Part shown: positions 4,150 through 44,862 of the stretch, one piece after another | Position numbering within the stretch: the stretch's first letter is position 1 | Layout: every line of letters begins with the position of its first letter | DNA from: Bacillota bacterium | Lineage (GTDB): Bacteria > Bacillota > SHA-98 > UBA4971 | NCBI GenBank assembly: GCA_030024085.1 | Contig: JASEJE010000011.1 | Coordinates: 1-64,000 of the forward strand | Length of the DNA stretch: 64,000 bases | Direction: 5' to 3' | The notes under the pieces: model-generated | The model's database searches: none | Told to the model about the DNA's origin: nothing | Seen by the model: the letters and a program-made list of their open reading frames with translations, nothing else | Translations under genes and position numbers: made by a program

Positions 4150-4284
4150 ACGAAGCGTGCCGCGAGCGCGCCTCGTTCGAATTTGGCGCGCGGGCCAGCC
4201 AAATTCTCGACGCCCCGTCGTGCAAGCACCGGCAACCCTGACACCCTCAAGAAAAACACCGAAAACTTCTGGCGCCATACTTAG
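4150..4284. repeat. Dispersed palindromic repeat, copy R2
   Basis: The stretch from GCGTGCCGCGAGCG through GTTCGAATTTGGCGCGC, CGTGCAAGCACCGGCAACC and GGCGCCATACTTAGG matches the reverse of R9 and R6 closely. It fills most of the 324-base gap between whiA and rpoN, which holds no gene. The preceding 4065-4149 is probably a diverged part of the same element. Confidence 0.85.
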
Positions 4285-16744: not shown

Positions 16745-16942
16745 CCAAGTATGGCGCCATGAGTTTGCGCCATCTTCCCTGACGGTGTTGGGGTTGGCGG
16801 TGCTTGCTAGGACGGGGCGCCTGGAATTTGGCTAGCCTTGAGCGCCAAATTCGAACGAGGCGCGCCGCGAGCGTGCCGTCCCCGGAGGGCAACACCGGCA
16901 ACCCTGGACAGGACTCACCCGCTGAGAAGTAGCGCGAGCCTG
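16745..16942. repeat. Dispersed palindromic repeat, copy R6
   Basis: A nearly complete copy in the reverse sense to R3: AAGTATGGCGCCATGAGTTT, CCTGACGGTGTTGGGGTTG, then AATTTGGCTAGCC facing GCGCCAAATTCGAACGAGG, and GGCAACACCGGCAACCCTGG near the end. The inner arms pair with each other as a long hairpin. Confidence 0.87.
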
Positions 16943-16953
16943 TGGCGATCTAC

Positions 16954-17700
16954 CTAGACCTCGGGCCTATCGAGCTCCATCCGGACCTTTCCGCGGGACC
17001 TGAGGAAGTCCATGACCCGCCCGACGCTGGTGTTGAGCACGAGGTCCTCCGGTAGACCCGCACGCTCCGCAAGCTCTATCGCTGCGTCGAACACCCCCAC
17101 CCGCGACGCATGGTGGGCATCGCTCCCGATGACCACGGCGACGCCGTACTCGGCAGCAAGCTCGGCAAAGCGAAGGCAGTTGTCGCGGCTCTCCAGCCTG
17201 ACCACGGTGAGCGACGAATTGTTGATCTCGAGGAGCTTGCCCAGGCGCTTCGCCGCCCGCACAACCTCCTCGATGTCCACTTGAAAGGCGGGGTTCCCCG
17301 GGTGAGCGATGGCGTCCACGTGGGGGTTCTCCATGGCGCCTATCATGGCCCTGGTGTTCTCCTCGACCGTCCCACCGTCGTAACCAGTGCCGGCGTGAAA
17401 TCCGGCGAGCACGAACTCCAGCTTCTTCAGGGAACGCTCGGGGAGGTCCAGATCGCCGGAGGGACTCGTTATGTTCGCCTCAACCCCCTTGAGGACCTCC
17501 ACCCCGGCGATGGTGGCCGGGACAACCCTCAGGTTACCGAAGTAGTAGCGATGCGGGCCGCCCGGGATGTTCGGGCCATGATCGGTGATGGCGATCATCT
17601 CGAGCCCGGCGTCACGGGCGGCGCGGGCCATCTCGTCGATGGTGTTGTATGCGTGTCCGCTTGCGACTGAGTGAGTGTGAAGATCTGCAACAAGCCGCAT
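16954..17700 (-). CDS. PHP-domain phosphoesterase (second copy)
   Basis: A 248-residue PHP protein with metal ligands in DLHTHSVASGHAYNT, ITDHGPN, GVEANI, AHPGNP and IGSDAHH, again YcdX-like. ATG 17700 has GGGAGG nine bases upstream. It lies 71 bases downstream of the GH57 gene and probably shares its transcript. Substrate unknown; a phosphosugar is likely. Confidence 0.88.
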   Translation of the reverse strand: MRLVADLHTHSVASGHAYNTIDEMARAARDAGLEMIAITDHGPNIPGGPHRYYFGNLRVVPATIAGVEVLKGVEANITSPSGDLDLPERSLKKLEFVLAGFHAGTGYDGGTVEENTRAMIGAMENPHVDAIAHPGNPAFQVDIEEVVRAAKRLGKLLEINNSSLTVVRLESRDNCLRFAELAAEYGVAVVIGSDAHHASRVGVFDAAIELAERAGLPEDLVLNTSVGRVMDFLRSRGKVRMELDRPEV

Positions 17701-29628: not shown

Positions 29629-29951
29629 GACTGCCCGATTCATTAGCAGGCCTATTCCGGAATTACGGTTTCGACGCGCTGGACGACGAACGCCACCGTG
29701 GCCTTATCGTGCGTACCGTCCTTGCGCGCGGCACGTGGGAACAGATCCTGTGGCTGTTCCGCCGTTACGGACGAGACGGGGTGAGAGAGGTATTCGTAGA
29801 GGACTACTACGGCCCACGGACCCTGCCTGATACCACACGAAGGCTCTGGGAACTCATGTTCATTGAGCAGCCTCTGCCCGAGGACCCGCACCCGGCCGGC
29901 CGCTGGCGTTGCCGCCGGGCCGTGGTGACGAATCGCGGACCAGAGCGCTAA
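29625..29951 (+). CDS. DUF6922-like small protein
   Basis: A 108-residue protein. The first 80 residues (LPDSLAGLFRNYGFDALDDE, HRGLIVRTVLARGTWEQI, RRYGRDGVREVFVEDYYGPR, RRLWELMF) match the pattern of DUF6922 proteins, which often precede AbiEii-type nucleotidyltransferase toxins. Here no toxin gene follows: the convergent transporter ATPase gene overlaps its last four bases. The tail after residue 90 is not family-like and may be read-through into unrelated sequence. Confidence 0.7.
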   Translation: MRLPDSLAGLFRNYGFDALDDERHRGLIVRTVLARGTWEQILWLFRRYGRDGVREVFVEDYYGPRTLPDTTRRLWELMFIEQPLPEDPHPAGRWRCRRAVVTNRGPER

Positions 29952-31177
29952 TCGCGGCGTGCGTGGCACCGCACGAGGCGGCGGCCGTCAACGGCCACAA
30001 GCTCGGGCTGAGAGATATCACAGCAAGGTCTGCGCACATCGCAGCGGGGAGCGAAGCTGCACCCGGGCCCAAGGGCAGCGAGGTCGGGAACCTCACCCAT
30101 GATCGGCGTGAGAGGCTTCCTTTCGCCGAGGCGCGGGATGGAGCGCAGAAGGCCCCGCGTGTAGGGGTGTACCGGATCCTCGAGCACCGCGTCGATGGGC
30201 CCCTGCTCCACGATCTGCCCGGCGTACATGACCGCAACCTCACGGCAAAACTCAGCGGCAATCGCCAGGTCGTGCGTGACCAGCACGATCGCGGTGCCGG
30301 TGGTCTCATTGATCTCTCTCATGAGGTCCAACACCTGGGCCTGAATGGTCACGTCCAGCGCAGTAGTGGGCTCATCTGCCAGCAGAATCTTCGGCCTGCA
30401 CGCAAGCGCTGTCGCTATGAGGACGCGTTGCTGCATCCCCCCGCTGAACTGGTGCGGATACTCGAGGTGCCTGGTTTCAGGCGACGGAATCCCAACCTGC
30501 CGCATGAGCTCGATGACCATCTCCCGCTGCCGCACGCGGCTGCGGCGCGTAAGGCTCGCCGGGAGACCCGGCAGGAACCCGTGAACCCGAAGGGACTCGG
30601 CTATCTGGTCTCCCACCCGGAACGCGGGGTTGAGCGTGGTCATGGGGTCCTGGAACACCATGGCGATGTCCCTGCCCCGCACCTCCCGCATCTCCCTCGC
30701 GCTGAGGCTCATGAGATCGCGTCCCACAAACATGATACTTCCCGCGACTATCCGCCCCGGGTGCGGCACAAGCCGCATTATCGAAAGGAGGCAGGCGCTC
30801 TTCCCGCAACCCGACTCTCCGACGATGGCGAGAACGTCGCCCTCCCCGAGCGTCAGGTCCACGCCGCGCACTGCCTGAACATCGCCCCGGGTGGTGGGGT
30901 ACACCGTGGACAGGCCGGACACCTGCAGCACAGCACAGGCCCTTTCGTCAGCGGGGCGAACGGCGTCTGCTGCGACCCGTGCAGGAGCCCAGCCTGCCGC
31001 CACGCCCGACTCGCGCACTGGCTCAATGCCTGCGGTGTAGCCTGCGGATTGGCTACGAGCGTTGTTTACGGTCCCACCCTGCTTACGCGGGATATCCGGG
31101 CCCGGAGCGCAGTCTGCGGATCGCCCAGGGGCGCGGCGTCCGCATGGGCCTGGGATGGTCCCCGTCTCCAATGCCAA
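29948..31177 (-). CDS. dppD: Peptide/nickel-type ABC transporter ATPase (DppD/OppD-like)
   Basis: A 409-residue ATPase. After a non-conserved 80-residue N-terminal extension come Walker A GESGCGKSA, the Q-loop VFQDPMTTLNP, signature QFSGGMQQRV, Walker B ILLADEPTTALDV and the C-terminal oligopeptide-type region (HPYTRGLLRSIP, CSFAPRCDVRRPCC) with cysteines. TTG 31177 is chosen because AAGGAGGGG stands six bases upstream; an internal start cannot be excluded. It is the last gene of the operon; the usual DppF partner is absent here but a candidate lies at 44892-45908. Confidence 0.92.
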   Translation of the reverse strand: MALETGTIPGPCGRRAPGRSADCAPGPDIPRKQGGTVNNARSQSAGYTAGIEPVRESGVAAGWAPARVAADAVRPADERACAVLQVSGLSTVYPTTRGDVQAVRGVDLTLGEGDVLAIVGESGCGKSACLLSIMRLVPHPGRIVAGSIMFVGRDLMSLSAREMREVRGRDIAMVFQDPMTTLNPAFRVGDQIAESLRVHGFLPGLPASLTRRSRVRQREMVIELMRQVGIPSPETRHLEYPHQFSGGMQQRVLIATALACRPKILLADEPTTALDVTIQAQVLDLMREINETTGTAIVLVTHDLAIAAEFCREVAVMYAGQIVEQGPIDAVLEDPVHPYTRGLLRSIPRLGERKPLTPIMGEVPDLAALGPGCSFAPRCDVRRPCCDISQPELVAVDGRRLVRCHARRD

Positions 31178-31180
31178 CGC

Positions 31181-32203
31181 CTACCCCTCCTTCAGCCTGG
31201 GGTCGAGGACGTCGCGGAGCGCCTCCCCGACGAGGTTTATCGCCAGGACCAGCCCCACGAGGGCGAGCCCCGGCAGCGTGGCAACCCACCACGCCGTGAG
31301 CATGTAGCGGCGCCCGTCGTTCACCATGGACCCCCACGCCGGGATGCGCGGCGGTATCCCGAGGCCCAGGAAGCTCAGGGACGACTCCAGGACGATCATG
31401 TTCCCCATCCGGAGGGTCCCCAGGACCAGTATCGAGTGGACGACGTTGGGCAGGATCTCCGAGCAGATTATGGCGGCGTGTGACCGCCCGAGCGCCCTTG
31501 CCGCCTCCACGTACTCCCGCGTCTTCTCCGACATGACCTCGGCCCTCGCAAGCCGGTAGAACTCAACCCAGCCCTTGAAACTCAGGGCCCAGATGAGGTT
31601 CCAGAACCCCGGCCCGAGGACGGCCATGGCCCCGATCACGAAAATCAGGTATGGGAACGCAAGCAGCAGGTCTGTGAACCTCGACACGATCCTGTCGAAG
31701 GAACCGCGGAAATAGCCTGCCACCACCCCAAGGCCCACGCCGACCGTGACCGAGATGGCGATGGTGAGGACTCCCACCAGGATCGAAACCCGCGCGCCGT
31801 AGATTATCCGGGACAGGATGTCCCGCCCGAGCTGATCGGTGCCCAGGGGGAACTCACCTATCCAGGATGGCGGCGCAAGGCGTTCGGAAAGGGCCACCTG
31901 GTCGGGGGCGCAAGGCGCCACCCATGGCGCAAAGATCGCCACCGCGACGTACAGCAGGATCACCACGCCGCCGATGACCGCGGCCGGATTTCCCGCCATC
32001 TGCCTCGCGAAGCTCAGGAAGTTCCTCACCGCAAGGCCCAGCGGCCCGGTGCCCCACGACCCGCGCGTCCGGGCCGCCCGCACCTCGTAGGCCTCCTGGA
32101 AATCGTAAGGTCGCCTGACCTCCCGGCCAGGCGCCGCACGGCGCCCCTCGTCTATCGCTTCGATTCCTTCCAGGCATATGGGCGAGTCTCGCAAGGCTCT
32201 CAC
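31181..32203 (-). CDS. dppC: Peptide/nickel-type ABC transporter permease (DppC-like)
   Basis: A 340-residue inner-membrane permease with about six helices, the LGTDQLGRDILSRIIYGARVS motif after the first periplasmic loop, and the EAA loop (EYVEAARALGRSHAAIICSEILPN without its ends). It pairs with DppB as the channel of the importer. GTG 32203 has GAGG at five bases. It is three bases from dppD. Confidence 0.93.
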   Translation of the reverse strand: MRALRDSPICLEGIEAIDEGRRAAPGREVRRPYDFQEAYEVRAARTRGSWGTGPLGLAVRNFLSFARQMAGNPAAVIGGVVILLYVAVAIFAPWVAPCAPDQVALSERLAPPSWIGEFPLGTDQLGRDILSRIIYGARVSILVGVLTIAISVTVGVGLGVVAGYFRGSFDRIVSRFTDLLLAFPYLIFVIGAMAVLGPGFWNLIWALSFKGWVEFYRLARAEVMSEKTREYVEAARALGRSHAAIICSEILPNVVHSILVLGTLRMGNMIVLESSLSFLGLGIPPRIPAWGSMVNDGRRYMLTAWWVATLPGLALVGLVLAINLVGEALRDVLDPRLKEG

Positions 32204-32234: not shown

Positions 32235-33251
32235 CTAAAGCGTCATCTTCGGGTTGAGGTACGTATACAGGACGTCGGTCGCCAGGTTCACGACAACGAA
32301 TGTCAGCGCATACACCATGACAGCCGCCTGCACCAGGGGATAGTCCCTCGAGAAGATGGCGTCCACGACCACGCGGCCGAGGCCGGGCCACCCGAAGATG
32401 GACTCCACGATCATGTTCCCGCCGAGGAGCGTGCCAACCTGGAGGCCGACCACCGTGACCGTGGGGATGAGCGCGTTGCGCAGCGCGTGGCGGATGGTCA
32501 CCGCTCGCTCGACGACACCCTTCGCTCTCGCGAAGAGGACATAGTCCGCGCGCAGCACTTCCAGCATGCTCGACCGCACGACCCTGGCCACCACCGCAGC
32601 CACGCCGGCGCCCAGCGTGGCGGCGGGGAGGGCGAGGTGCTTCAGGGCGTCCCACAGGGCCGGCATGTTGCCCGTCAGAAGGGCGTCCACCGTGAAGAGC
32701 CCTGTGATCGTCGCAGGCTCAAACCCATAGGTGATCCGTCCCGAGGTTGGCAGCCACCGCAGGTGCAGCGAGAACACGATGATCCCGAGTATCCCCAGCC
32801 AGAACGCGGGCATTGATATCCCGAGAAACGACGCGGCCATGCTGGTCCGGTCGATGAACGACCGTTGCCGGACCGCAGATACAACGCCGATGGGCACGGC
32901 AATCACGAGCGCGAAGAGCAGCGAACACAGGGCAAGCTCCATGGTGGCCGGCAGCGCCTCCAGGATCACCACCGCCACCGGACGCGAGCTTGGAATGGAG
33001 TACCCGAGGTCGCCTCGGACAAGCCCGGCGAGGTATCTCCCAAGCTGGACGGGAAGGGATTGGTCCAGGCCAAGCTCGGTCTTGAGGGCGTGGATGTCCT
33101 CCTGGGTGACGCCGCCGGCCTCGCCGATCATGATGTCAACCGGGTCACCCGGCATGAGCCGCATGAAGATGAACACGGCGATGGCGACGCCAAGGGCTAT
33201 GGGTATCGTCGCAAGCACCCGTTCGAGAATCTGCACGTGTGTTCGTCGCAT
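32235..33251 (-). CDS. dppB: Peptide/nickel-type ABC transporter permease (DppB-like)
   Basis: A 338-residue permease with an N-terminal helix (RVLATIPIALGVAIAVFIFMR), the MPGDPVDIMIG loop and an EAA motif (YVLFARAKGVVERAVTIRHALRN without its ends), as in DppB. ATG 33251 sits seven bases after GGGGGG; a TTG two codons earlier abuts that site. It follows the binding-protein gene by about 100 bases. Confidence 0.93.
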   Translation of the reverse strand: MRRTHVQILERVLATIPIALGVAIAVFIFMRLMPGDPVDIMIGEAGGVTQEDIHALKTELGLDQSLPVQLGRYLAGLVRGDLGYSIPSSRPVAVVILEALPATMELALCSLLFALVIAVPIGVVSAVRQRSFIDRTSMAASFLGISMPAFWLGILGIIVFSLHLRWLPTSGRITYGFEPATITGLFTVDALLTGNMPALWDALKHLALPAATLGAGVAAVVARVVRSSMLEVLRADYVLFARAKGVVERAVTIRHALRNALIPTVTVVGLQVGTLLGGNMIVESIFGWPGLGRVVVDAIFSRDYPLVQAAVMVYALTFVVVNLATDVLYTYLNPKMTL

Positions 33252-33313
33252 ACGCAACCCCCCACGGTTCCCGGCGTCGCCTTCATCCGCCCCGGGGATG
33301 TCCGCGGCCGCCG

Positions 33314-33364
33314 CGCTACTTCGCCATTTCCGCTGCCTCGCTACCTCCGCAACCTCGCTATTTC
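33314..33364. repeat. Degenerate 17-bp x 3 tandem repeat at a stop codon
   Basis: Three units of about 17 bp, each an 8+9 pair of CGCTAxxT-type words, end inside the last codons of the binding-protein gene; the TAG stop lies in the last unit. A similar 8-bp array lies over the stop codon of another binding-protein gene at 51772-51811. Confidence 0.6.
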
Positions 33365-34935
33365 ACAGAATAGCCCGCTTCCTTCAGCAGCTCCTTCGCC
33401 CTCGCCGGATCATACGGATAGGGTTTGAGATCGGGGTTGAACCCGAACCCACTCGGCAGGAACGCCGTGGCCAGGTGGGTGGCAGTGCCCCCATAGATGG
33501 TCTCCAGGATCCTGTCCCAGTTGACTGCGTAGTTCATCGCCCTCCGCACCCTGGCATCGTTGAAGGGCGGCTTTGCGCAGTTCAGCTCCACGCAGTAGAC
33601 GCGGGTCCCCTCGACGCTCTTCACCTGCACGTTCTTGTCCCTTTTGAGGCTGGCAGCGATGTCGGGCGGCACCTGCTGCACGATCTGCACCTCGCCTGCC
33701 TTGAGCGCGGCGATGCGCACCGTGGGGTCAGGCATCATCCTGAAGATGGCCCGTTTCACCTTCGCCGGCCCCATGGGCGGCAGGTCTGGCGATCCGCCGT
33801 AGTAGTCGTCGAACCTCTCCATCACGATCTGGTCGTCGAGCCTGCCCCCGACGAACTTGAACGGACCGCAGCCCACGGGCTTCCTGGCAAACTCGTCGTC
33901 GCCGACCTTTTGTATGTAGTCCTTCGGCACCACCTGAATGTGCACCAGGCCCTGCAGGAACACGGGGAAGGGGCTGGCCAGGGTAAACCTGACCGTGTAC
34001 TGGTCAACCTTCTCCACCTTCTCCAGCGGGCCGAGAAGCCCCTTTCGAGGCGACGACCGGCCGCCGATGGCGCCTTCCTTCAGAACGCGCTCGAAGCTAT
34101 ACACCACGTCGTCCGCATCGAGAGCCTCGCCGCTATGGAACTTGATGCCCTTGCGGATTTTAAAGACGTATACGTTGTCCGCGGGCGTCGTCCACGACTC
34201 GGCGATCTCCGGCACCACCTTGCCGTCCCAGGTGCGGGTCACAAGCCCGTCGAACATGTTGCGAAGCACGGTCTCAGTGTCCCTCTCACGGTGCATCGCC
34301 GGGTCCAGGGACACCGCCTTGTCGGTCTTCATGCCCACGACTATGGTATCGCCGCGCGTAAGCCCGACATCGTGAAGGTTGATGCGGGAGTCCATGGCCG
34401 GTTGCCAGTTCTGCACCTCGGCCCTGGCGGCTTCGGTCTCGCTGAGGTAATACCCGAAGATCCAGGGCGCGTCCTCATACAGGATCGACTGGGCCTCGTA
34501 ATAGGCCTTTCGCCGGACCTCCGGATCGATGGTGGTGAGCGCCTTGTCGACGGCACGGTCGAACGCCGGGTTGCTGTAGTGCGAGTAGTTGCCTCGGTCC
34601 CCCGTGCGCAGCTTTGGCAGTGCGAGGTCGAAGGGATCGAAGTATGCGCTGCCCCAGTCGGTCAGATACATCTGCCGCTCGCCTTTGACTGCGCTGTCTT
34701 TGAGTGCGCTCCACTCCCAGATTCGCGCGTCAGCCTGAACGCCGATGGCCCGCAGGTCGGCTGCGATTGCCTCAGCCTCGTCAGCCCTGTTCGCCTCGGC
34801 ATCGATGACGACGGTCAAGGTTTTCCCGGCCGCCTTGAGCGGTGCACCACTCAGAAACCCCATTGAGAGCAACGCAAGAGCTACCACGGCGCCCGCAACC
34901 AAAGAAACCTTTCCACGGACCAGACTTGCTCTCAT
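33358..34935 (-). CDS. SBP_bac_5 peptide-type solute-binding protein, apparently circularly permuted
   Basis: A 525-residue extracytoplasmic binding protein with a signal peptide (VAGAVVALALLSMGFLSGAPLKAA without ends) and no lipobox Cys. Residues 38-192 (KTLTVVIDAEANRADEAEAI, MYLTDWGSAYFDPFDLALP, NYSHYSNPAFDRAVDKAL, YYEAQSILYEDAPWIFGYYL) look like the usual C-terminal segment of SBP_bac_5 proteins. Residues 197-525 look like the usual N-terminal segment (VSLDPAMHRERDTETVLRNM, KIRKGIKFHSGEALDADDVV, KPVGCGPFKF) and stop at YDPARAKELLKEAGYSVK, exactly where the other part normally follows. AAGGAGG precedes the start. It heads the dpp-like operon. Confidence 0.88.
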   Translation of the reverse strand: MRASLVRGKVSLVAGAVVALALLSMGFLSGAPLKAAGKTLTVVIDAEANRADEAEAIAADLRAIGVQADARIWEWSALKDSAVKGERQMYLTDWGSAYFDPFDLALPKLRTGDRGNYSHYSNPAFDRAVDKALTTIDPEVRRKAYYEAQSILYEDAPWIFGYYLSETEAARAEVQNWQPAMDSRINLHDVGLTRGDTIVVGMKTDKAVSLDPAMHRERDTETVLRNMFDGLVTRTWDGKVVPEIAESWTTPADNVYVFKIRKGIKFHSGEALDADDVVYSFERVLKEGAIGGRSSPRKGLLGPLEKVEKVDQYTVRFTLASPFPVFLQGLVHIQVVPKDYIQKVGDDEFARKPVGCGPFKFVGGRLDDQIVMERFDDYYGGSPDLPPMGPAKVKRAIFRMMPDPTVRIAALKAGEVQIVQQVPPDIAASLKRDKNVQVKSVEGTRVYCVELNCAKPPFNDARVRRAMNYAVNWDRILETIYGGTATHLATAFLPSGFGFNPDLKPYPYDPARAKELLKEAGYSVK

Positions 34936-35046
34936 CCCGCACGCCTCCTTATCATGTTATGGCAGGTTCAGATGCGCCTTCCCGCAGCAACATGGCGTGG
35001 GCCTGGAAGGGACGCTGCTTCACGGGAGTCGTCGTTGCCGCTGCGC

Positions 35047-35169
35047 AGGTGCGGGTTCAGGAATCACTGCCACTTTGCCAGGAGCTGCCTTTTCAACGCC
35101 CCATCGCGCAAGCGCCGACAACCCACAGGCTTCCGCCAAACCGGCACGGACTCCCGAACTCATACTCAG
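35047..35169. repeat. Dispersed palindromic repeat, internally deleted copy R8
   Basis: AGGTGCGGGTTCAGGAATCA and CGCCCCATCGCGCAAGCG then CCAAACCGGCACGGACTCCC match the two ends of R7 read in reverse, with the middle of the element missing. It lies between the riboswitch and the binding-protein gene. Confidence 0.65.
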
Positions 35170-35203
35170 CTTCCGCAGCCCACTCTCGCTCTCCGCGGCA
35201 CCA

Positions 35204-35320
35204 CTTAAGTATGGCGCCATAAGTTTGTGCCATTTTCCCTGACGGTGTTGGGGTTGCCGGTGCTTGCACGAGGGGGCGTCGAGAATTTGGCTAGCCCGCG
35301 CGCCAAATTCGCAAGAGGCT
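35204..35320. repeat. Dispersed palindromic repeat, truncated copy R9
   Basis: TTAAGTATGGCGCCATAAG through GACGGTGTTGGGGTTGCCGG, GAATTTGGCTAGCC and GCGCCAAATTCGCAAGAGGC match about 115 bases of R6 and R2. The other third is missing; the match stops right at the terminator of the c-di-AMP leader. Confidence 0.88.
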
Positions 35321-35353
35321 AAAGACAACAATCGCCCAGGGGCAGCCCTGGGC
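35321..35353 (-). terminator. Intrinsic terminator of the riboswitch leader
   Basis: On the minus strand GCCCAGGG-CTGC-CCCTGGGC forms an 8-bp stem and is followed by GATTGTTGTCTTT. It stands about ten bases after the aptamer and is the likely expression platform. Confidence 0.8.
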
Positions 35354-35362
35354 AATACAGAG

Positions 35363-35508
35363 GCGTCCCCCTTACGACGCTTGCGAGGTTAGCTGACGGG
35401 CTCGGACCGAAGGAGCTGGCCCTACCTGCGTTCTCCCGCAGGACTCGCCCCGGACACCTGGGACTTTGGTTCCCCCGCTCTTCCCGAAGGAAGACTCAGC
35501 GGCCGCAC
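35363..35508 (-). ncRNA. c-di-AMP riboswitch (ydaO/yuaA class)
   Basis: The minus strand reads GCCGCTGAGTC, GCGGGGGAACC, GGGGCGAGTCCTG, GGTAGGGCCAGCTCC and the hallmark GAGCCCGTCAGCTAACCTCG followed by CAAGCGTCGTAAGGGGGACG. The order and sequence match B. subtilis ydaO almost base for base in the conserved core. Ligand binding usually turns expression off through a terminator, which is present at 35321-35353. The next gene on this strand is the peptide-type binding protein, 428 bases beyond the aptamer. Confidence 0.93.
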
Positions 35509-35554
35509 GCGGTTTTGCTGCGGCAAAAACCGACGCATCTATTCTGTTGTTCTA

Positions 35555-35584
35555 ATATTACCACCCACACCCCGGTTATGTCAA
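35555..35584 (-). promoter_or_regulatory. Sigma-A promoter of the riboswitch leader
   Basis: On the minus strand a perfect TTGACA (35579-35584) and TAATAT (35555-35560) are separated by 18 bases. Transcription would start near 35548, about 40 bases before the aptamer. Confidence 0.8.
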
Positions 35585-35794: not shown

Positions 35795-36036
35795 ATGAGC
35801 GCGGGGCGCAAAGACGAGTCGACGCGGATAATGACCGTGCCGGACGAGATAACGGAGCACGAGTTCGTGACGGTGACGGGCAACGACTTCGTGTCGCTGC
35901 CTGAAATCGATGCCTGGGGTCGAGTCCTGAGCGCTACTTTTCTGCACGCTGGCTGCGGCGTGTGACGTAACCGGGCGCTGCGACCTCGGTGTTGTAAAGA
36001 GCGCTGTTGAACTACTGACCTCAGCGCCGATGGATT
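35795..36036 (+). pseudogene. Collapsed relic of the six-hairpin glycosidase gene
   Basis: A 56-codon frame starting at ATG 35795 (GGGGTGGGGCAG upstream) encodes EITEHEFVTVTGNDFVSLPE and on to TFLHAGC, nearly the same as residues 18-55 of the glycosidase at 42529-44862. It stops at 35965. Directly after it, 35969-36036 (CCGGGCGCTGCGACCTCGGT, GAGCGCTGTTGAACT, CAGCGCCGATGGATT) matches 44634-44700, near the 3' end of that same gene. About 1.94 kb in between is missing, so this is an internally deleted duplicate. Confidence 0.9.
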
Positions 36037-36354: not shown

Positions 36355-37398
36355 ATGCCGACGATCAGGGACGTGGCGAGACTGGCTGGGGTCGCGCCAT
36401 GCACGGTCTCGAACACGCTGAACGGCACCGGCTATGTGGCCAAGACGACCCGGGAAAGAGTGCTGGCCGCCGTGCGCGAGCTTGGCTATCAACCGAGCGC
36501 AATCGCACGCGGATTGAAGCTTGGACGCACAAACATGATTGCGCTGATCATTCCCACCATATCAACCCCGATGTTCTCGGAGATGATCGAGGGGATCGAA
36601 GAGGTGGCCGCCGCAACAAACTACAACCTGATCCTCTGCCGCTCAGCTCGCGACCCAAAACGGGAGCTCACATACCTCAACCTCTTCAGAGATGGGCGAG
36701 TGGATGGCATCATCCTGGCGGCTCCGAAGGTGGATGACCCCTGTTTCGCAGAGGTCAGTGCCACTACGCTGCCAGTCGTCGTTGTTGGCGGCGAGTCTCC
36801 GGGCCAGGATGTGCCATCAGTGGTGGTTGACAACCGCAAGGGAGCTTCTGAGGCCATAAGGTACCTTCTCCAGCTGGGGCACCAGCGGGTCGGCTTCATC
36901 AACGGACCCCTCACGGTCTTCGACAGCCGCGAGCGCTTTGAAGCGGTCAAGGACGCTCTCAGGAAAGCAGGTGTCCCGTTCGACGAACATCATCTCTACG
37001 TTGAAGGCGATTTCACGCGGTCCTCAGGCTATGCTGCCGCCAGGGAGATCATGTCTGGACCGCTCAGACCGACGGCACTCTTCGTGGGCGGCGACACCAT
37101 GGCGATGGGCGCCATGCAGGCCCTGAAGGACCTGGGGTTTCGCATACCAGACGATGTAGCGGTGGTTGGGTTCGACGACATCAAGTACGCCCAGTACTTC
37201 GAGCCGCCGCTGACCACCGTGCGTCAGCCGGCTTACCAGGTGGGGTCGCGCGCGACGAAGATGCTTCTCAGCTTGATAGAGGGGAAGCCGTTGCGACGGA
37301 AGCACCTGGTAATGGATGTCAAACTCGTCATTCGCGGTTCCTCAGAACGAAGGAGGCAGCCTGGGGGCGCACGCGGCACGAGTCGTCATGAAGGGTAG
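36355..37398 (+). CDS. LacI-family transcriptional regulator
   Basis: A 347-residue regulator. The helix-turn-helix and hinge are at residues 1-56 (TIRDVARLAGVAPCTVSNTL, ARGLKLGRTNMIALIIPTIS), followed by a periplasmic-binding-protein-like sensor domain. The effector is probably a sugar taken up by the neighbouring transporter. It is the first gene of the 36-45 kb locus. The 16 residues after SSERR are a non-conserved tail. Confidence 0.93.
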   Translation: MPTIRDVARLAGVAPCTVSNTLNGTGYVAKTTRERVLAAVRELGYQPSAIARGLKLGRTNMIALIIPTISTPMFSEMIEGIEEVAAATNYNLILCRSARDPKRELTYLNLFRDGRVDGIILAAPKVDDPCFAEVSATTLPVVVVGGESPGQDVPSVVVDNRKGASEAIRYLLQLGHQRVGFINGPLTVFDSRERFEAVKDALRKAGVPFDEHHLYVEGDFTRSSGYAAAREIMSGPLRPTALFVGGDTMAMGAMQALKDLGFRIPDDVAVVGFDDIKYAQYFEPPLTTVRQPAYQVGSRATKMLLSLIEGKPLRRKHLVMDVKLVIRGSSERRRQPGGARGTSRHEG

Positions 37399-37481
37399 CC
37401 GAGGGCGAACGTGGTGAGGGTACCACCTAAACTGGCAGAACCGATGGCAGCCGATCGCCACGACTCATACGCTCCCCCACT

Positions 37482-37519
37482 TCTCTCAGGTACCCGCCGG
37501 AAAGCGAAAACCTGAGAGA
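37482..37519. repeat. Inverted repeat in the leader of the importer genes
   Basis: TCTCTCAGGT (37482-37491) and ACCTGAGAGA (37510-37519) are perfect inverted arms with an 18-base loop; weaker pairing extends outward on both sides. There is no T-tract, so it is more likely an operator or leader structure than a terminator. Confidence 0.5.
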
Positions 37520-37684
37520 GCGGGAGAGATCTAAAGTACCAACGCAAAACAAAGAGATAGGGGGGTGAGAGGGGGAACAAGCTGCAAGCGGTTTGGGAGT
37601 CATGTGAGGGGAATGTGAGAGGTGAGAGGCAAAAGGGTGGAGTTGGCGCGATCCAGATAATCTTCAGTGGAAGGAAGTGTTACT

Positions 37685-38959
37685 GTGGCAAGGACACAGA
37701 TTCGTCGTCTTACGTCAAGAGCGCTTGTGTGTGCGCTAGTACTTACACTGGTTGGATTTGCAGCGGGGGTCGGGGCCCCGGCTGCTACGAAGACAACGAT
37801 CGTCCACTGGCAGCACCACCATGAGGCGAGGACGCCGGTGCTGCAGGAAATGGCGCGCGAGTTCGAGAAGACTCATCCCAACGTCGAGATCAAGTTCGAG
37901 CCCATTCCCTATGACTCGTACTTCGACAAGCTCATAACGTCGCTGAGTTCCGGGACGGGTCCTGACGTTTTCCAGATCCCGATGTCAATGGGGCAGCAAA
38001 TGGCGCGTTCCGGCATGCTGGTTCCCGTGCCGAAGGAAGTGCTGACCACCGAGCAGATCGAGAGAGACTACCTGCCGTGGACGACCTCCCAGCTGAAGTA
38101 CAAGGGACAGTATTATGGACTGCCGACAGACGTGCAGACGCTTGTGTTGTTCATCAACAACAAGCTGTACCGCGAGGCAGGGTTTGATCCTGCGAAACCC
38201 CCGAAGACGTGGGCGGAATTCGAGGCCCAGGCAGTGAAGGGCACGAAGAAAGACGCGTCCGGCCGCCTTGCCCAGGCCGGCCTTGATACTCGTTACAAGT
38301 GGGCTGTGTATCAGTTGTTTATGTACCAGAAGGTAAAGGGCGACGTCGTGGACGTTGAGGCGAAGAGAGTACGCTACGACGGCGATGAGGGTCTCGCAGC
38401 ATGGCAGTTTGTCGCGGACCTCATGGTGAAACACGGTGTCGACTCCCCCGAATTCCTGACCGGTCAGAAGAAGTTCGAGCAGGGACGCGCGATGTTCTAC
38501 ATCAACCATCCCGTGACGCGAGGCCGCCTTTCGCTCGAGTGCCCTGACATTGAGTACACGATAGCTCCTGTCCCGTCCCCGGACGGCAAGCCGCTCACGG
38601 TCGGGCACCATTGGGCATATGTCGTATCGAAACGCGCTTCCAACCAGAAGCTGGCCTGGGAGTGGGTGCAGTTCCTCGCCGGGAAGGACGGGCAGATGGC
38701 CTGGTGCGTGAAGGCGGGCGATCTTCCTTCGCTCAAGGGACTGGTTGGCTTGCCCGAGTTGACGCCCGACGAGAACGCTCGCGTGTGCATGGACTCTCTG
38801 CTCTATGCCCGTCCCTGTCAGCAGGTGACGAGGAGCGAGGTGGACGCCATTCACGCCACAATCTGGGATAGCATCGTGTTGGGCAAAGCCTCGGTGGAGC
38901 GGGCCGTCAGAGACGGGGCTGCCAGAGAGAACGAGGTGCTTGCTCGGGTGCTCAAGTAA
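37685..38959 (+). CDS. Carbohydrate ABC transporter solute-binding protein
   Basis: About 424 residues. The signal peptide (ALVCALVLTLVGFAAGVGAPAA) lacks a lipobox Cys, so the protein is probably free in the periplasm. The SBP_bac_1 fold is shown by ATKTTIVHWQHHHEARTPVL, LITSLSSGTGPDVFQIP and KPPKTWAEFEAQAVKGT. GTG 37685 has GGAAGGAAG upstream; GTG 37667 is an alternative. Permease genes follow after 548 bases, an unusually long gap holding a hairpin and repeat R10. Confidence 0.92.
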   Translation: MARTQIRRLTSRALVCALVLTLVGFAAGVGAPAATKTTIVHWQHHHEARTPVLQEMAREFEKTHPNVEIKFEPIPYDSYFDKLITSLSSGTGPDVFQIPMSMGQQMARSGMLVPVPKEVLTTEQIERDYLPWTTSQLKYKGQYYGLPTDVQTLVLFINNKLYREAGFDPAKPPKTWAEFEAQAVKGTKKDASGRLAQAGLDTRYKWAVYQLFMYQKVKGDVVDVEAKRVRYDGDEGLAAWQFVADLMVKHGVDSPEFLTGQKKFEQGRAMFYINHPVTRGRLSLECPDIEYTIAPVPSPDGKPLTVGHHWAYVVSKRASNQKLAWEWVQFLAGKDGQMAWCVKAGDLPSLKGLVGLPELTPDENARVCMDSLLYARPCQQVTRSEVDAIHATIWDSIVLGKASVERAVRDGAARENEVLARVLK

Positions 38960-41501: not shown

Positions 41502-42524
41502 ATGATTCCAGACGCTGATGCAGGCCGCGAATCCCAGTCGACAGAGGGGGCTTTCGGTGGGTACCGCAGGCCTTCCTTTCCTGTGTTCGACTTCCACGCG
41601 CACTTTCCCGTTGAGGAGGACTTTGCCAAGAAGGACGAGTACATCCGCAGGTTCGGCCGGGAAAAATGGGAGAAGATCGCCCGCGAGGCTGATAGGCTGC
41701 AAGAGGACTGGCGGCAGGCGTGGAGCTTCCTGAGGCCGGACACAGAGCGAGAGCCGCTGGAGGCGCTCATGGCCCGCTGGGCCGCTGAGGTGGACCGCTA
41801 TGGCCTGGACGGGATCGCATTCGTTACGGGCGGCGGCAACGACCTTCTGGCACGCATTCTGGGGAGCGAGCCCCGGCGGTTCGTGGGGTTCGCGCACCAC
41901 AGCCCGGAGAAGCCGGACGCCGCGGAGGAACTGCGGCGGGCCGTGACCGAGCTCGGGCTGCGGGGCTACAAGATCCTGGCGCCGCTTCTAGAGGGGTCTC
42001 TTGCGGACGAGAGGCTCTACCCTGTGTGGCAGGCCGCGGAAGACCTCGAGGTGCCGATCCTCATACACTTTGGCATCCTTGGTGGGGGCGGAGGCATTGG
42101 GAATGCGCCCAACATCGATCCACTGGTCATCCACGATGTCGCGAAGGCTTTCCCTGACGTCACGTTCGTCATCCCCCACTTCGGGTGCGGATACACCCGG
42201 GAGCTTCTGCAACTCGCGTGGGCTTGTCCGAACGTGTCGGTGGACACGTCCGGCAACAACGAATGGGTGCACTGGTTTCCATATGAGCTTGACCTGAAGA
42301 AGCTGTTCTGGCTGTTTTACGAGACTGTGGGGCCGCGCAGGATCATCTTCGGAAGCGACTCAAGCTGGTTTCCGAGAGGCTTTGCCCACCGTTACCTGCT
42401 TGACCAGATCAGAGCGTGCAGGGAACTGAGGATCGGGGAAGACGACATGGCCTTGATATTCGGAGGCAACGCCAAGAGACTCTTGAAGCTGGATGATCGA
42501 GCGGTGCCAGGCGAGCGAGGTTGA
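41502..42524 (+). CDS. Amidohydrolase-2 family (TIM-barrel) hydrolase
   Basis: About 340 residues. Metal-ligand motifs FDFHAHFP, ILIHFGI, VIPHFGCG and FGSDSSWFPR fit the amidohydrolase_2 (ACMSD-like) family. The start is uncertain: ATG 41502 has GGTGAGGTGAGG upstream, with GTG 41481 or 41448 also possible. It lies between the transporter and the glycosidase, four bases before the latter. The substrate is unknown; it could act on a carboxylated or lactone-type sugar derivative. Confidence 0.8.
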   Translation: MIPDADAGRESQSTEGAFGGYRRPSFPVFDFHAHFPVEEDFAKKDEYIRRFGREKWEKIAREADRLQEDWRQAWSFLRPDTEREPLEALMARWAAEVDRYGLDGIAFVTGGGNDLLARILGSEPRRFVGFAHHSPEKPDAAEELRRAVTELGLRGYKILAPLLEGSLADERLYPVWQAAEDLEVPILIHFGILGGGGGIGNAPNIDPLVIHDVAKAFPDVTFVIPHFGCGYTRELLQLAWACPNVSVDTSGNNEWVHWFPYELDLKKLFWLFYETVGPRRIIFGSDSSWFPRGFAHRYLLDQIRACRELRIGEDDMALIFGGNAKRLLKLDDRAVPGERG

Positions 42525-42528
42525 GGGA

Positions 42529-44862
42529 ATGGGCGTTCAGTTAAGTGACGATTGTACGCGTATCGTGACTGTTCCCGATGAGATAACGGAGGACCGGTTT
42601 GTCACGGTGACCGGCAACGACTTCGTGTCGCTGCCGGAGATCGATGCCTGGGGCCGGATAGCGGGCGTGACCTTCTTGCATGCGGGGTGCGCGGGCCTGA
42701 TTGAAGTGAGGGGAGGCCGGCACGGGACTGGCGGGGCCGGGGCTGCAAGCCGCGCCACCGCCGGAGGCGACCAGGCGGACAACAGGGACGCCCCGCCGTT
42801 TGTTGCGCCCGTGTTTGTGTGGAACGGTGCGGCCGTAGATCTTGCCGGCGCGGTGCCTGAGTTCGCGCTGGAAGAGGACTGGATCCCGACCTTCTCCTGG
42901 ACGGGCGGGAATGGGCCCGGGTCAGGGGGTGTCGAGTGGAGGCTCTCCGCACGCATAGTGGCGCCGCCGGACGAAAAGGGTTTCTGTTACATACTTGAGC
43001 TTCAGCGCCTTGGCCTTGAGCGGCATGAGGGTGGCGAGGCGGCCGAGGACGGTTGCGCGGAGCACAACCCAGAAGCTGCGGGGACCATCCGGGCGGAACT
43101 TGGAGTGCATCTCGCCTGGGGTTATAGCGGCATCCGCGTATTCACATCGCGCGAGCTTCCGCTCGTTCGCACGTGCAGGTACGACCGATGGACCCATGGC
43201 GTCGTCGCGGAGGCCCTGGGTCCTGTTCCGGTGTTCGGATTTGCATTGAACGCGTCCGGAGACTTCGATCGACTGGAGGTAGCGGGGTCGGCGGGTGATG
43301 TGGCGGCGAGCGCAGGCGGGTGGGACTGTGCCGCTCCGGCGGGCGGTGCGATCCCAGCCCCAGGTTCGCCAGACGGCGTCGGCACGTCGGGCGTTGTCGT
43401 CCGTGCCACGAAGTTTGTCACCCTTACCTCGGGCGAGCGCGCCACGGTGGCCTTCTACGTGGCTTTCAACAGGGAGGCGGATGGCGCTCGCACCACCGGC
43501 GTCCACTTGAGACGGCTGGGCTGGCAGGCGCTCGAGGCGGAGACCCGGAGATGGCTTACCGACCGGCGGATCCCGGTTCCCGGCCAGCCCCGGGAGGAAG
43601 CAGTCCTCAATAGAAACCTGCTCTTTTGCCGCTTCTTCGCGACAGGACGGGCTCTGGACTCGGAGGAGGTCGTGGCAGTGACCTCCCGCAGCCCGCGTTA
43701 CTACGTGAGTGCCGCCTTTTGGGCACGGGACGTGCTTCTGTGGTCGCTGCCAGGGCTCATGCTGGTGGACCGCGCTCGGGGCCGCGAGGTGCTGCTCCGT
43801 GCGTTCTCCGTGGGGACCAGGCACGTGGGTGACCACGCGGAGTATATCGACGGCCGGGGGCTCTACCCCGGGTTTGAGCTTGACGAGGCTGCAGCTTTTC
43901 TCGTGGGTCTCGGCACCTACCTTGACGCGACTTCCGACTTCGACATCATCCGGGAACCTCAGGTTCTGGAGGGGGTAAGGCGGGTCCTGGCTGAGATCGA
44001 GAGATGGACGGTGCGCACCGCGGACGGAAAGCCTGTCCTCTGCCGGACCTTCCTCGACCCGTCGGATGACCCGGTGAGGCTGCCTTTCCTGACCTACAAC
44101 AACGTGCTGGTGAGAAAGGGGTGGCTTGTTGCTGCGGACGTGCTCGAGCGCATCGCGGCTGATGGTGACGACGACCAGGCTTGCCATGTTCTGAGGCAAC
44201 AGGCCCGTGAACTCCGGGAGGCGGCAGAGACGCTGGGTGAGGCGATCCGCCGTTACTGCGTTGTGGACGGGCCGTTTGGCCCTATGTATGCGTGGGCCGT
44301 GGGCGTCACGCCGCACGAACCGTCCGGAGTCGAAGGGGAGCCTGGGGCTATACAGGCCGTCGAGGTAAGCGCATCCTACCGAGGGTCACGTCGCGCCGGA
44401 GCCGAGTTGTACGACGACCCGCCAGGGAGCCTCGAACTGCTGGGCCATTACGGCTACTGCCGGGACGGGGACGGCGCGTCCATCCTGGCCAACACCAGAC
44501 GCTGGATACGCTCGCTCCACAACCCTTACTTCGTCGAGGGCCGCTTCGCGGCCCCAGGCTCGGCGCACTCGCCGCATCCGTGGCCGATGGCCGTGGCCAG
44601 CTCCGTCCTGGCCGAAGCTGCGGCGCAGGACGCAACCGGGCGCTGCGACCTCGGTATCGTGAGGAGCGCTGTTGAACTCTTGACCGCAGCGCCGATGGAT
44701 TCCGGGCTCGCCTGCGAGAGCATAGACGCGGAAACCGGGATGGTGAAAACCGGCGCCGCCTTTGCAAGCGCGGCGGGGTTCCTGGGTTACAGCCTGTGGC
44801 GGGGCCTCGGCCTGCTGGGATTGCGTGCCGCACGCAAGGCATGCGGCACGGGGCCGAGGTGA
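42529..44862 (+). CDS. Six-hairpin glycosidase-like protein (GH125-like?)
   Basis: A 777-residue cytosolic protein without signal peptide. An N-terminal beta domain (to about residue 330) is followed by an (alpha/alpha)6 catalytic-type domain: SPRYYVSAAFWARDVLLWSL, YIDGRGLYPGFELDEAAAFL, LPFLTYNNVLVRKGW, ELYDDPPGSLELLGHYGYC, HSPHPWPMAVASS and ACESIDAETGMVKTGAAFAS. The pattern recalls proteins annotated GH125 (alpha-mannosidase), but I am not certain. ATG 42529 follows GAGGTTGAGGGA. A relic of a paralogue lies at 35795-36036. Confidence 0.78.
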   Translation: MGVQLSDDCTRIVTVPDEITEDRFVTVTGNDFVSLPEIDAWGRIAGVTFLHAGCAGLIEVRGGRHGTGGAGAASRATAGGDQADNRDAPPFVAPVFVWNGAAVDLAGAVPEFALEEDWIPTFSWTGGNGPGSGGVEWRLSARIVAPPDEKGFCYILELQRLGLERHEGGEAAEDGCAEHNPEAAGTIRAELGVHLAWGYSGIRVFTSRELPLVRTCRYDRWTHGVVAEALGPVPVFGFALNASGDFDRLEVAGSAGDVAASAGGWDCAAPAGGAIPAPGSPDGVGTSGVVVRATKFVTLTSGERATVAFYVAFNREADGARTTGVHLRRLGWQALEAETRRWLTDRRIPVPGQPREEAVLNRNLLFCRFFATGRALDSEEVVAVTSRSPRYYVSAAFWARDVLLWSLPGLMLVDRARGREVLLRAFSVGTRHVGDHAEYIDGRGLYPGFELDEAAAFLVGLGTYLDATSDFDIIREPQVLEGVRRVLAEIERWTVRTADGKPVLCRTFLDPSDDPVRLPFLTYNNVLVRKGWLVAADVLERIAADGDDDQACHVLRQQARELREAAETLGEAIRRYCVVDGPFGPMYAWAVGVTPHEPSGVEGEPGAIQAVEVSASYRGSRRAGAELYDDPPGSLELLGHYGYCRDGDGASILANTRRWIRSLHNPYFVEGRFAAPGSAHSPHPWPMAVASSVLAEAAAQDATGRCDLGIVRSAVELLTAAPMDSGLACESIDAETGMVKTGAAFASAAGFLGYSLWRGLGLLGLRAARKACGTGPR

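Follow-up and report, generated by a model that had tools for sequence, protein, structure and literature searches.

Analysis of a 64-kb stretch of Bacillota DNA (hereafter the window) indicates that a terminating c-di-AMP riboswitch very probably controls, as an OFF switch, an ABC importer operon coding for a circularly permuted solute-binding protein (SBP), DppB- and DppC-type permeases and a DppD-type ATPase, and that two repeat copies in the leader of this operon are very probably passengers. The features are listed in Table 1. The surprise lies in the conserved unusual target, the permuted SBP, and not in the riboswitch itself, which by its sequence is an ordinary new member of the known RF00379 class and as such is predicted to bind its ligand.

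Table 1. The riboswitch, its leader and the importer operon, in the order of minus-strand transcription.
Feature	Coordinates	Strand	Basis
Promoter TTGACA-N18-TAATAT, TG before -10	35555..35584	minus	Pattern count relative to shuffles
P0 helix 5' arm GCGU, encloses aptamer; partner 35363-35366	35533..35536	minus	Fold of 18-leader alignment
c-di-AMP riboswitch aptamer RF00379	35363..35511	minus	Covariance match
Candidate antiterminator 5' strand AAGGGGGAC, overlaps P0 3' arm	35365..35373	minus	Inferred switch
Intrinsic terminator: hairpin 35356-35331 and U-rich tail 35330-35321	35321..35356	minus	18/18 leaders
Candidate antiterminator partner GCCCCU, inside terminator	35338-35343	minus	Predicted duplex
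R8, 3' portion of ~209-nt dispersed element with terminal inverted repeats, 5'-truncated	35206..35319	minus	Copy alignment
R9, degenerate copy of R8 family, inverted relative to R8	~35049..35169	plus	Alignment
Leader remainder, Shine-Dalgarno AAGGAGG at 34944-34950	34936..35048	minus	Last ~45 nt match repeat-free relative
Circularly permuted family-5 (DppA-like) solute-binding protein	33358..34935	minus	Pfam, structure-chain alignment
DppB-type permease	32235..33257	minus	Homology
DppC-type permease	31181..32203	minus	Homology
DppD-type ATPase	29948..31177	minus	Homology

The initial annotation described a promoter, a near-canonical ydaO/yuaA aptamer and a terminator on the minus strand, and staked this description on a covariance search returning a ydaO match. 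The search returns one, and all three parts are present. The RF00379 aptamer scores 78.1 bits relative to a gathering score of 38 (window-wide E = 1.9e-16) with the model covered over its full length (1-134), and is the sole Rfam match at the gathering threshold within the window; the leader has no second Rfam element at this threshold. The promoter-like site is observed once relative to 0.2 expected from shuffles, and inspection by eye shows that a TTGAC -35 and a TA-rich -10 also precede the aptamer in genomes G001, G003-G006 and G009-G012. No comparable -35/-10 pair is visible by eye before the aptamer in G007 and G008, and the upstream sequence of G002 is masked. An intrinsic terminator adjoins the aptamer, as expected for the expression platform of an RF00379 member. 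Its U-tract is weak (tail TGTTGTCTTT), and finding terminator-like sites in such number is not unusual by chance (3 observed versus 1.7 expected). However, a terminator hairpin with a T-rich tail is kept in all 18 related leaders, and it is on this conservation, not on rarity, that our trust in the window hairpin rests. The fold of aptamer plus terminator is likewise no more stable than that of shuffled sequences (z -0.95, 35 of 200 as good), and the evidence for the aptamer, as far as sequence informs it, is the covariance score together with conservation and not folding energy. Finally, the genome that contains the window (G000) has two diadenylate cyclase DAC (PF02457) matches above cut-off, indicating that the ligand c-di-AMP is made by the cell.

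The region upstream of the riboswitch has undergone a local rearrangement. In the window, a LacI-type regulator and an SBP_bac_1 gene occupy 36355-38959 (plus strand), whereas a DppF-type-looking ATPase gene is found on the opposite strand at the same place in G001, G004, G005, G006 and G012; its DTU025 counterpart has ABC_tran and oligo_HPY Pfam matches. Just upstream of the promoter, positions 35813-36036 contain debris that is 77% and 87% similar to 42547-42691 and 44617-44701, respectively. These stretches lie inside a 789-residue ORF (42493-44862), and the debris is probably a pseudogene fragment.

Two readings of this locus had been proposed in the initial annotation, namely that a c-di-AMP riboswitch stands before an importer with a repeat-loaded leader, or that the repeats displaced or replaced the original target gene. 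The next minus-strand gene after the aptamer is indeed the permuted SBP gene, as had been noted. We searched for RF00379 in 61 genomes, 45 of which have a match, and in 13 of the 13 genomes of family f1 an orthologue of the permuted SBP is the next large gene after the aptamer and is on the same strand (in G002 a contig end splits this gene, both pieces of which were found). The four other genomes of the class contain no close orthologue of the permuted SBP. Scanning public genomes yielded 20 loci, eight of which come from genomes already counted and 11 of which are new; the weak match L132, which does not have the full permuted order, was dropped. An aptamer is present upstream of the permuted SBP in five of the 11 new loci (L114 and L120-L123, 63-74% identity), with a D-Ala-D-Ala ligase-type gene standing between switch and binding protein in L114. 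Because the permuted gene follows the aptamer in every f1 genome, a displaced or replaced target gene is unsupported and was rejected, and the importer reading, which is supported by these 13 genomes and the five further loci, is favoured. This shared neighborhood also indicates that the pairing of aptamer and SBP is old in this Bacillota lineage.

The linkage has boundaries. No aptamer was detected in the examined upstream DNA, up to 6 kb, of L124-L127 and L130 (50-57% identity), indicating that a permuted SBP can work without such control, and none was detected within the ~550 bases of upstream DNA examined at L131 (60% identity). When we began instead with 30 riboswitch loci from relatives, with flanks of at most 1.5 kb, four matched the permuted SBP and all four belong to family f1.

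The permuted gene codes for a protein of 525 residues that matches SBP_bac_5 (PF00496) with 300 bits in two stretches. Alignment with the E. coli DppA chain 8z1z_F shows that its halves are swapped, with residues 238-522 aligning to chain positions 72-368 and residues 50-177 aligning to positions 389-519, so that the canonical order of DppA/OppA-type parts is not found in this product. An AlphaFold2 model built from 19 relatives has a mean pLDDT of 86.7 and a pTM of 0.83. Over residues 192-525 this model can be superposed on the N-terminal two thirds of DppA-type structures (e.g. 1dpp_A, Z 26.2, rmsd 3.4, 321 aligned). Note that the structure-search rows span residues 192-525 only, and that the N-terminal part (residues 38-190) was placed by sequence. 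The protein is 90-91% identical to its two closest orthologues.

Homologues of the cognate DppB and DppC permeases and of the DppD ATPase follow the SBP gene in order, and these genes are presumably co-transcribed with it; no DppF-like gene was recognized in the window. In its SBP_bac_5 match and in this gene order the operon is like the DppABCDF and OppABCDF importers. It is unlike them in that the binding protein is circularly permuted and reaches no NCBIfam equivalog cut-off; none is reached by the permeases or the ATPase either. A natural circularly permuted ABC-type binding protein is also described in Treponema pallidum, where Tp0684/MglB-2 is reported to still bind ligand despite its permutation (PMC4990184), although as described there it belongs to another family (a sugar-binding Type I fold) and has another permutation. 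At a locus from an unclassified bacterium (L125:5980-11658), the permuted SBP makes up the N-terminal part of a hybrid kinase of 1892 residues that has SBP_bac_5, SBP_bac_3, PAS, HisKA, HATPase and receiver domains.

How the switch might operate is suggested by the alignment of 18 leaders. In the alignment fold, a P0 helix (GCGU:ACGC, columns 16-19/215-218) encloses the aptamer; its four pairs are individually retained in 16-18 of the 18 leaders, and one pair varies among U-A, U-G and C-G. Partly overlapping the 3' arm of this helix is the segment AAGGGGGAC(G), which, in folds computed with the terminator forbidden, pairs with the terminator loop and 3' arm in most of the 18 sequences. This candidate antiterminator duplex is predicted in 18/18 sequences at -12 to -21 kcal/mol. 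Cognate strands pair better than the mean over all combinations, with 99 of 10000 permutations as good in a comparison that ignores the relatedness of the leaders, and the pairing is kept where GGGAC:GUCCC in most of one genus becomes GGGGC:GCCCC in the other genus. In the window the partner strand has GCCCC in place of the GUCCC of most sisters, and thus one of its antiterminator pairs is weaker. In all 18 sequences the terminated state is favored over the antiterminated state by ~1-7 kcal/mol, from which it follows that antitermination would have to be kinetic.

On this basis we propose that transcription begins just past 35555 and runs through the aptamer. When c-di-AMP is bound, the aptamer and P0 would hold the segment that precedes the terminator, the terminator would form and the transcript would end near 35321. 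When there is little c-di-AMP, the freed segment would pair with the terminator loop and 3' arm, permitting read-through into the repeat-laden leader and synthesis of the importer. High c-di-AMP would in this way lead to reduced importer expression. In the sense that we envisage, c-di-AMP would be high when osmolytes are not in short supply in the cell, and as peptide import raises internal osmolarity, the role of the switch would be to restrain the import of peptides or similar solutes that are osmotically active.

The sequence itself does not fix the sign of this response, and the aptamer and terminator do not directly overlap, which leaves room for the opposite arrangement in which c-di-AMP binding favors read-through. 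We regard such an ON switch as very unlikely, since the candidate antiterminator shares bases with the aptamer-closing P0 helix, which predicts an OFF switch, and since two c-di-AMP riboswitches of like design are reported to be OFF switches (PMC6488665 and PMC9337991). Specifically, OFF control by the kdpFABC c-di-AMP riboswitch of Bacillus thuringiensis is reported from reporter and in vitro assays (PMC6488665). As described there, this system has the same aptamer family, an intrinsic terminator, a leader of more than 100 nt and a transporter operon as its target; it differs in that the target is a K+ pump and in that OFF control is demonstrated, whereas it is proposed here. The Dehalobacter tandem Na+/c-di-AMP riboswitch (PMC9337991) is reported to be similar in having a c-di-AMP aptamer followed by its own terminator and an osmotic-stress theme. 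In contrast to that tandem the window has a single aptamer and another target gene, and no Na+ riboswitch was found in the window at the Rfam gathering threshold.

Between the terminator and the start codon of the permuted SBP gene the window has ~385 bases of leader. The initial annotation described two repeat copies filling this interval; both copies are present, but together they cover only ~235 bases of it. As measured from the aptamer end to the start codon, the distance is 427 nt in the window, 248 nt in G003, 263 nt in G005 and 324-551 nt in the other ten f1 genomes. The comparison with a repeat-free relative that had been suggested is provided by the sister species G003, whose 248-nt leader keeps the aptamer before the permuted gene and can be aligned to that of the window at its two ends, among them the ~45 bases that lead up to the start codon, leaving the repeats as extra sequence in the window. 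The G004 leader has a different insertion that is absent from G003. Judged from these alignments, R8 and R9 are insertions located behind the terminator, between it and the ribosome-binding site. The differing insertions further indicate that leaders have been entered more than once behind the terminator (in the window and in G004) and that the linkage of aptamer and gene survived this.

R8 belongs to a MITE-like element, ~209 nt long in genus g1, that was defined from aligned copies at 29 loci plus the window. The element has sharp ends, and its terminal inverted repeats match at 21 of 26 bases in the consensus, as counted by eye; the leader copy R8 does not have the left end. There are at least 40 copies in G000 (42 matches, with 40 of 390 first-look candidates scored), similar numbers in G001-G004 and four in G005. 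A 110-nt core (element positions 54-163) is also found by itself in G013 and G015, members of another family of the class, and has a branched fold in which 98.9% of cells are paired and 5 of 37 pairs show double changes among 25 copies. Further copies of this dispersed structured repeat are present in the window at 16747-16957 and 4170-4283 and elsewhere at L137-L156, and the repeat has no Rfam match in the window at the gathering threshold. A REP/RAYT origin was considered and rejected as Y1_Tnp (PF01797), the sole transposase family searched, is absent from G000; another transposase may be the source.

In the predicted mRNA fold, R8 pairs with R9 over ~30 complementary bases to give a long hairpin (z -3.0, with 0 of 100 shuffles as good). 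This strong predicted hairpin, together with the ~180 nt that the repeats add over the shortest sister leader, could mean that the repeats uncoupled the switch, with the aptamer RNA terminating at 35321 and the importer expressed from a promoter that the repeats brought or created. We consider this decidedly unlikely. On the minus strand, the stretch from 35320 to 34936 contains no further promoter-like or terminator-like site, the promoter, aptamer and terminator are all intact, some relatives have leaders that are about as long or longer (412-551 nt), and the SBP is conserved at the level of identity to its closest orthologues given above. The same complementarity, and the fact that the core of the element is a conserved structured unit with double changes at five pairs, might instead indicate that the hairpin is a regulatory leader element, for example an RNase site, an mRNA stabilizer or a translational control element. 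However, it is absent from G003, the insertion in G004 is a different one and its position relative to the gene is not conserved, which makes a regulatory role highly unlikely. We thus retain the reading in which the repeats would be passengers between terminator and ribosome-binding site that do not touch the switch.

The same interval carries a different feature in genus g2, where a small ORF of 61-75 codons is located between the terminator and the permuted SBP gene in six of seven leaders (L068, L071, L072, L074, L076 and L077; not G007). It is preceded by an AGGAGG or GGAGG Shine-Dalgarno sequence, contains a conserved RCPHERLE-like stretch and has a dN/dS of 0.11-0.57 in the 10 of 15 pairs for which this ratio was computable, and it is possibly a leader-encoded small protein.

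The riboswitch-linked SBP is not the only permuted one, as low-identity full-length matches in G001, G005 and G016 are also permuted. There are two further permuted family-5 SBP kinds in the class, both with a cut point at roughly the loop that is cut in the riboswitch-linked protein. One is an OppA-like kind found at G000:C3:33097-34770 (L160), G001:C2 (L159) and G016:C3 (L097), and the other is a third kind found at G001:C35 (L157) and G005:C8 (L158). An OppA-like query had no full-length single match in 79 of 81 genomes, and beyond G000 and G001 its best matches are proteins of canonical order that align in two pieces (up to 47%).

We built a tree of the shared part with 34 rows. It omits L160_1, L100_0, L100_1 and L168_0 (ORFs with no match), L166 (no 400-residue ORF in the stretch used) and 8 of the 19 rows of A5, which are close relatives of rows kept. 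The tree needs four changes of part order, and no branch separates the permuted rows from all the others. Placing the 16 permuted rows in one clade is rejected (AU p 1.7e-38), a test in which L096 and L172, whose order is unassigned as they have no second-part match, were counted among the 18 other rows. With one clade rejected, independent permutations are the plain reading, and such SBPs have probably been permuted more than once at about the same loop. One old permutation followed by several reversions is formally possible.

Other c-di-AMP aptamers in the lineage precede different genes. Downstream of a second aptamer in G000 (C17:6891-7115, L078) are genes for an octopine-dehydrogenase-like protein and a B12-binding protein, and this second type (L078 and L079-L082) is present in five of the six genomes of the genus, with Pfam run on the G000 copy only. 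Another aptamer is located at L069, L073 and L075 in genus g2. From the look of their sequences, the genes that follow it at all three loci are presumably Mrp/Mnh-type Na+/H+ antiporter subunits, and at L069 and L073 we also take one to be a SulP-like transporter, which is not seen in L075. These neighborhoods allow a broader joint reading, in which at least three hinge-loop permutations, one of which gave the DppA-like target of the riboswitch, are combined with c-di-AMP gating of an importer for a peptide- or opine-like osmolyte and of opine synthesis as well. Repeated permutation, the part of this reading that has tree support, is graded above; the reading as a whole we consider unlikely. 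The idea of a shared-solute regulon, in which c-di-AMP would set both uptake and synthesis of one solute, is speculation.

Mutations in Opp are reported among the suppressors of lost c-di-AMP synthesis (dacA) in Listeria and Group B Streptococcus (PMC5836111, PMC5919688), which connects c-di-AMP with peptide import through suppressor genetics and speaks for the control proposed here. Searches of titles and abstracts returned no report of a c-di-AMP riboswitch on a Dpp or Opp operon, of a c-di-AMP riboswitch on an opine dehydrogenase gene or of a permuted family-5 binding protein, and for none of these do we claim absence from print. A conserved c-di-AMP riboswitch before a DppA-type importer would link c-di-AMP and peptide import directly at the level of the gene. 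The leader exemplifies how small dispersed repeats can enter a riboswitch operon past the terminator with the linkage unbroken. Finally, permuted SBPs that were seemingly made repeatedly are useful for understanding how and why proteins of this type become re-ordered.
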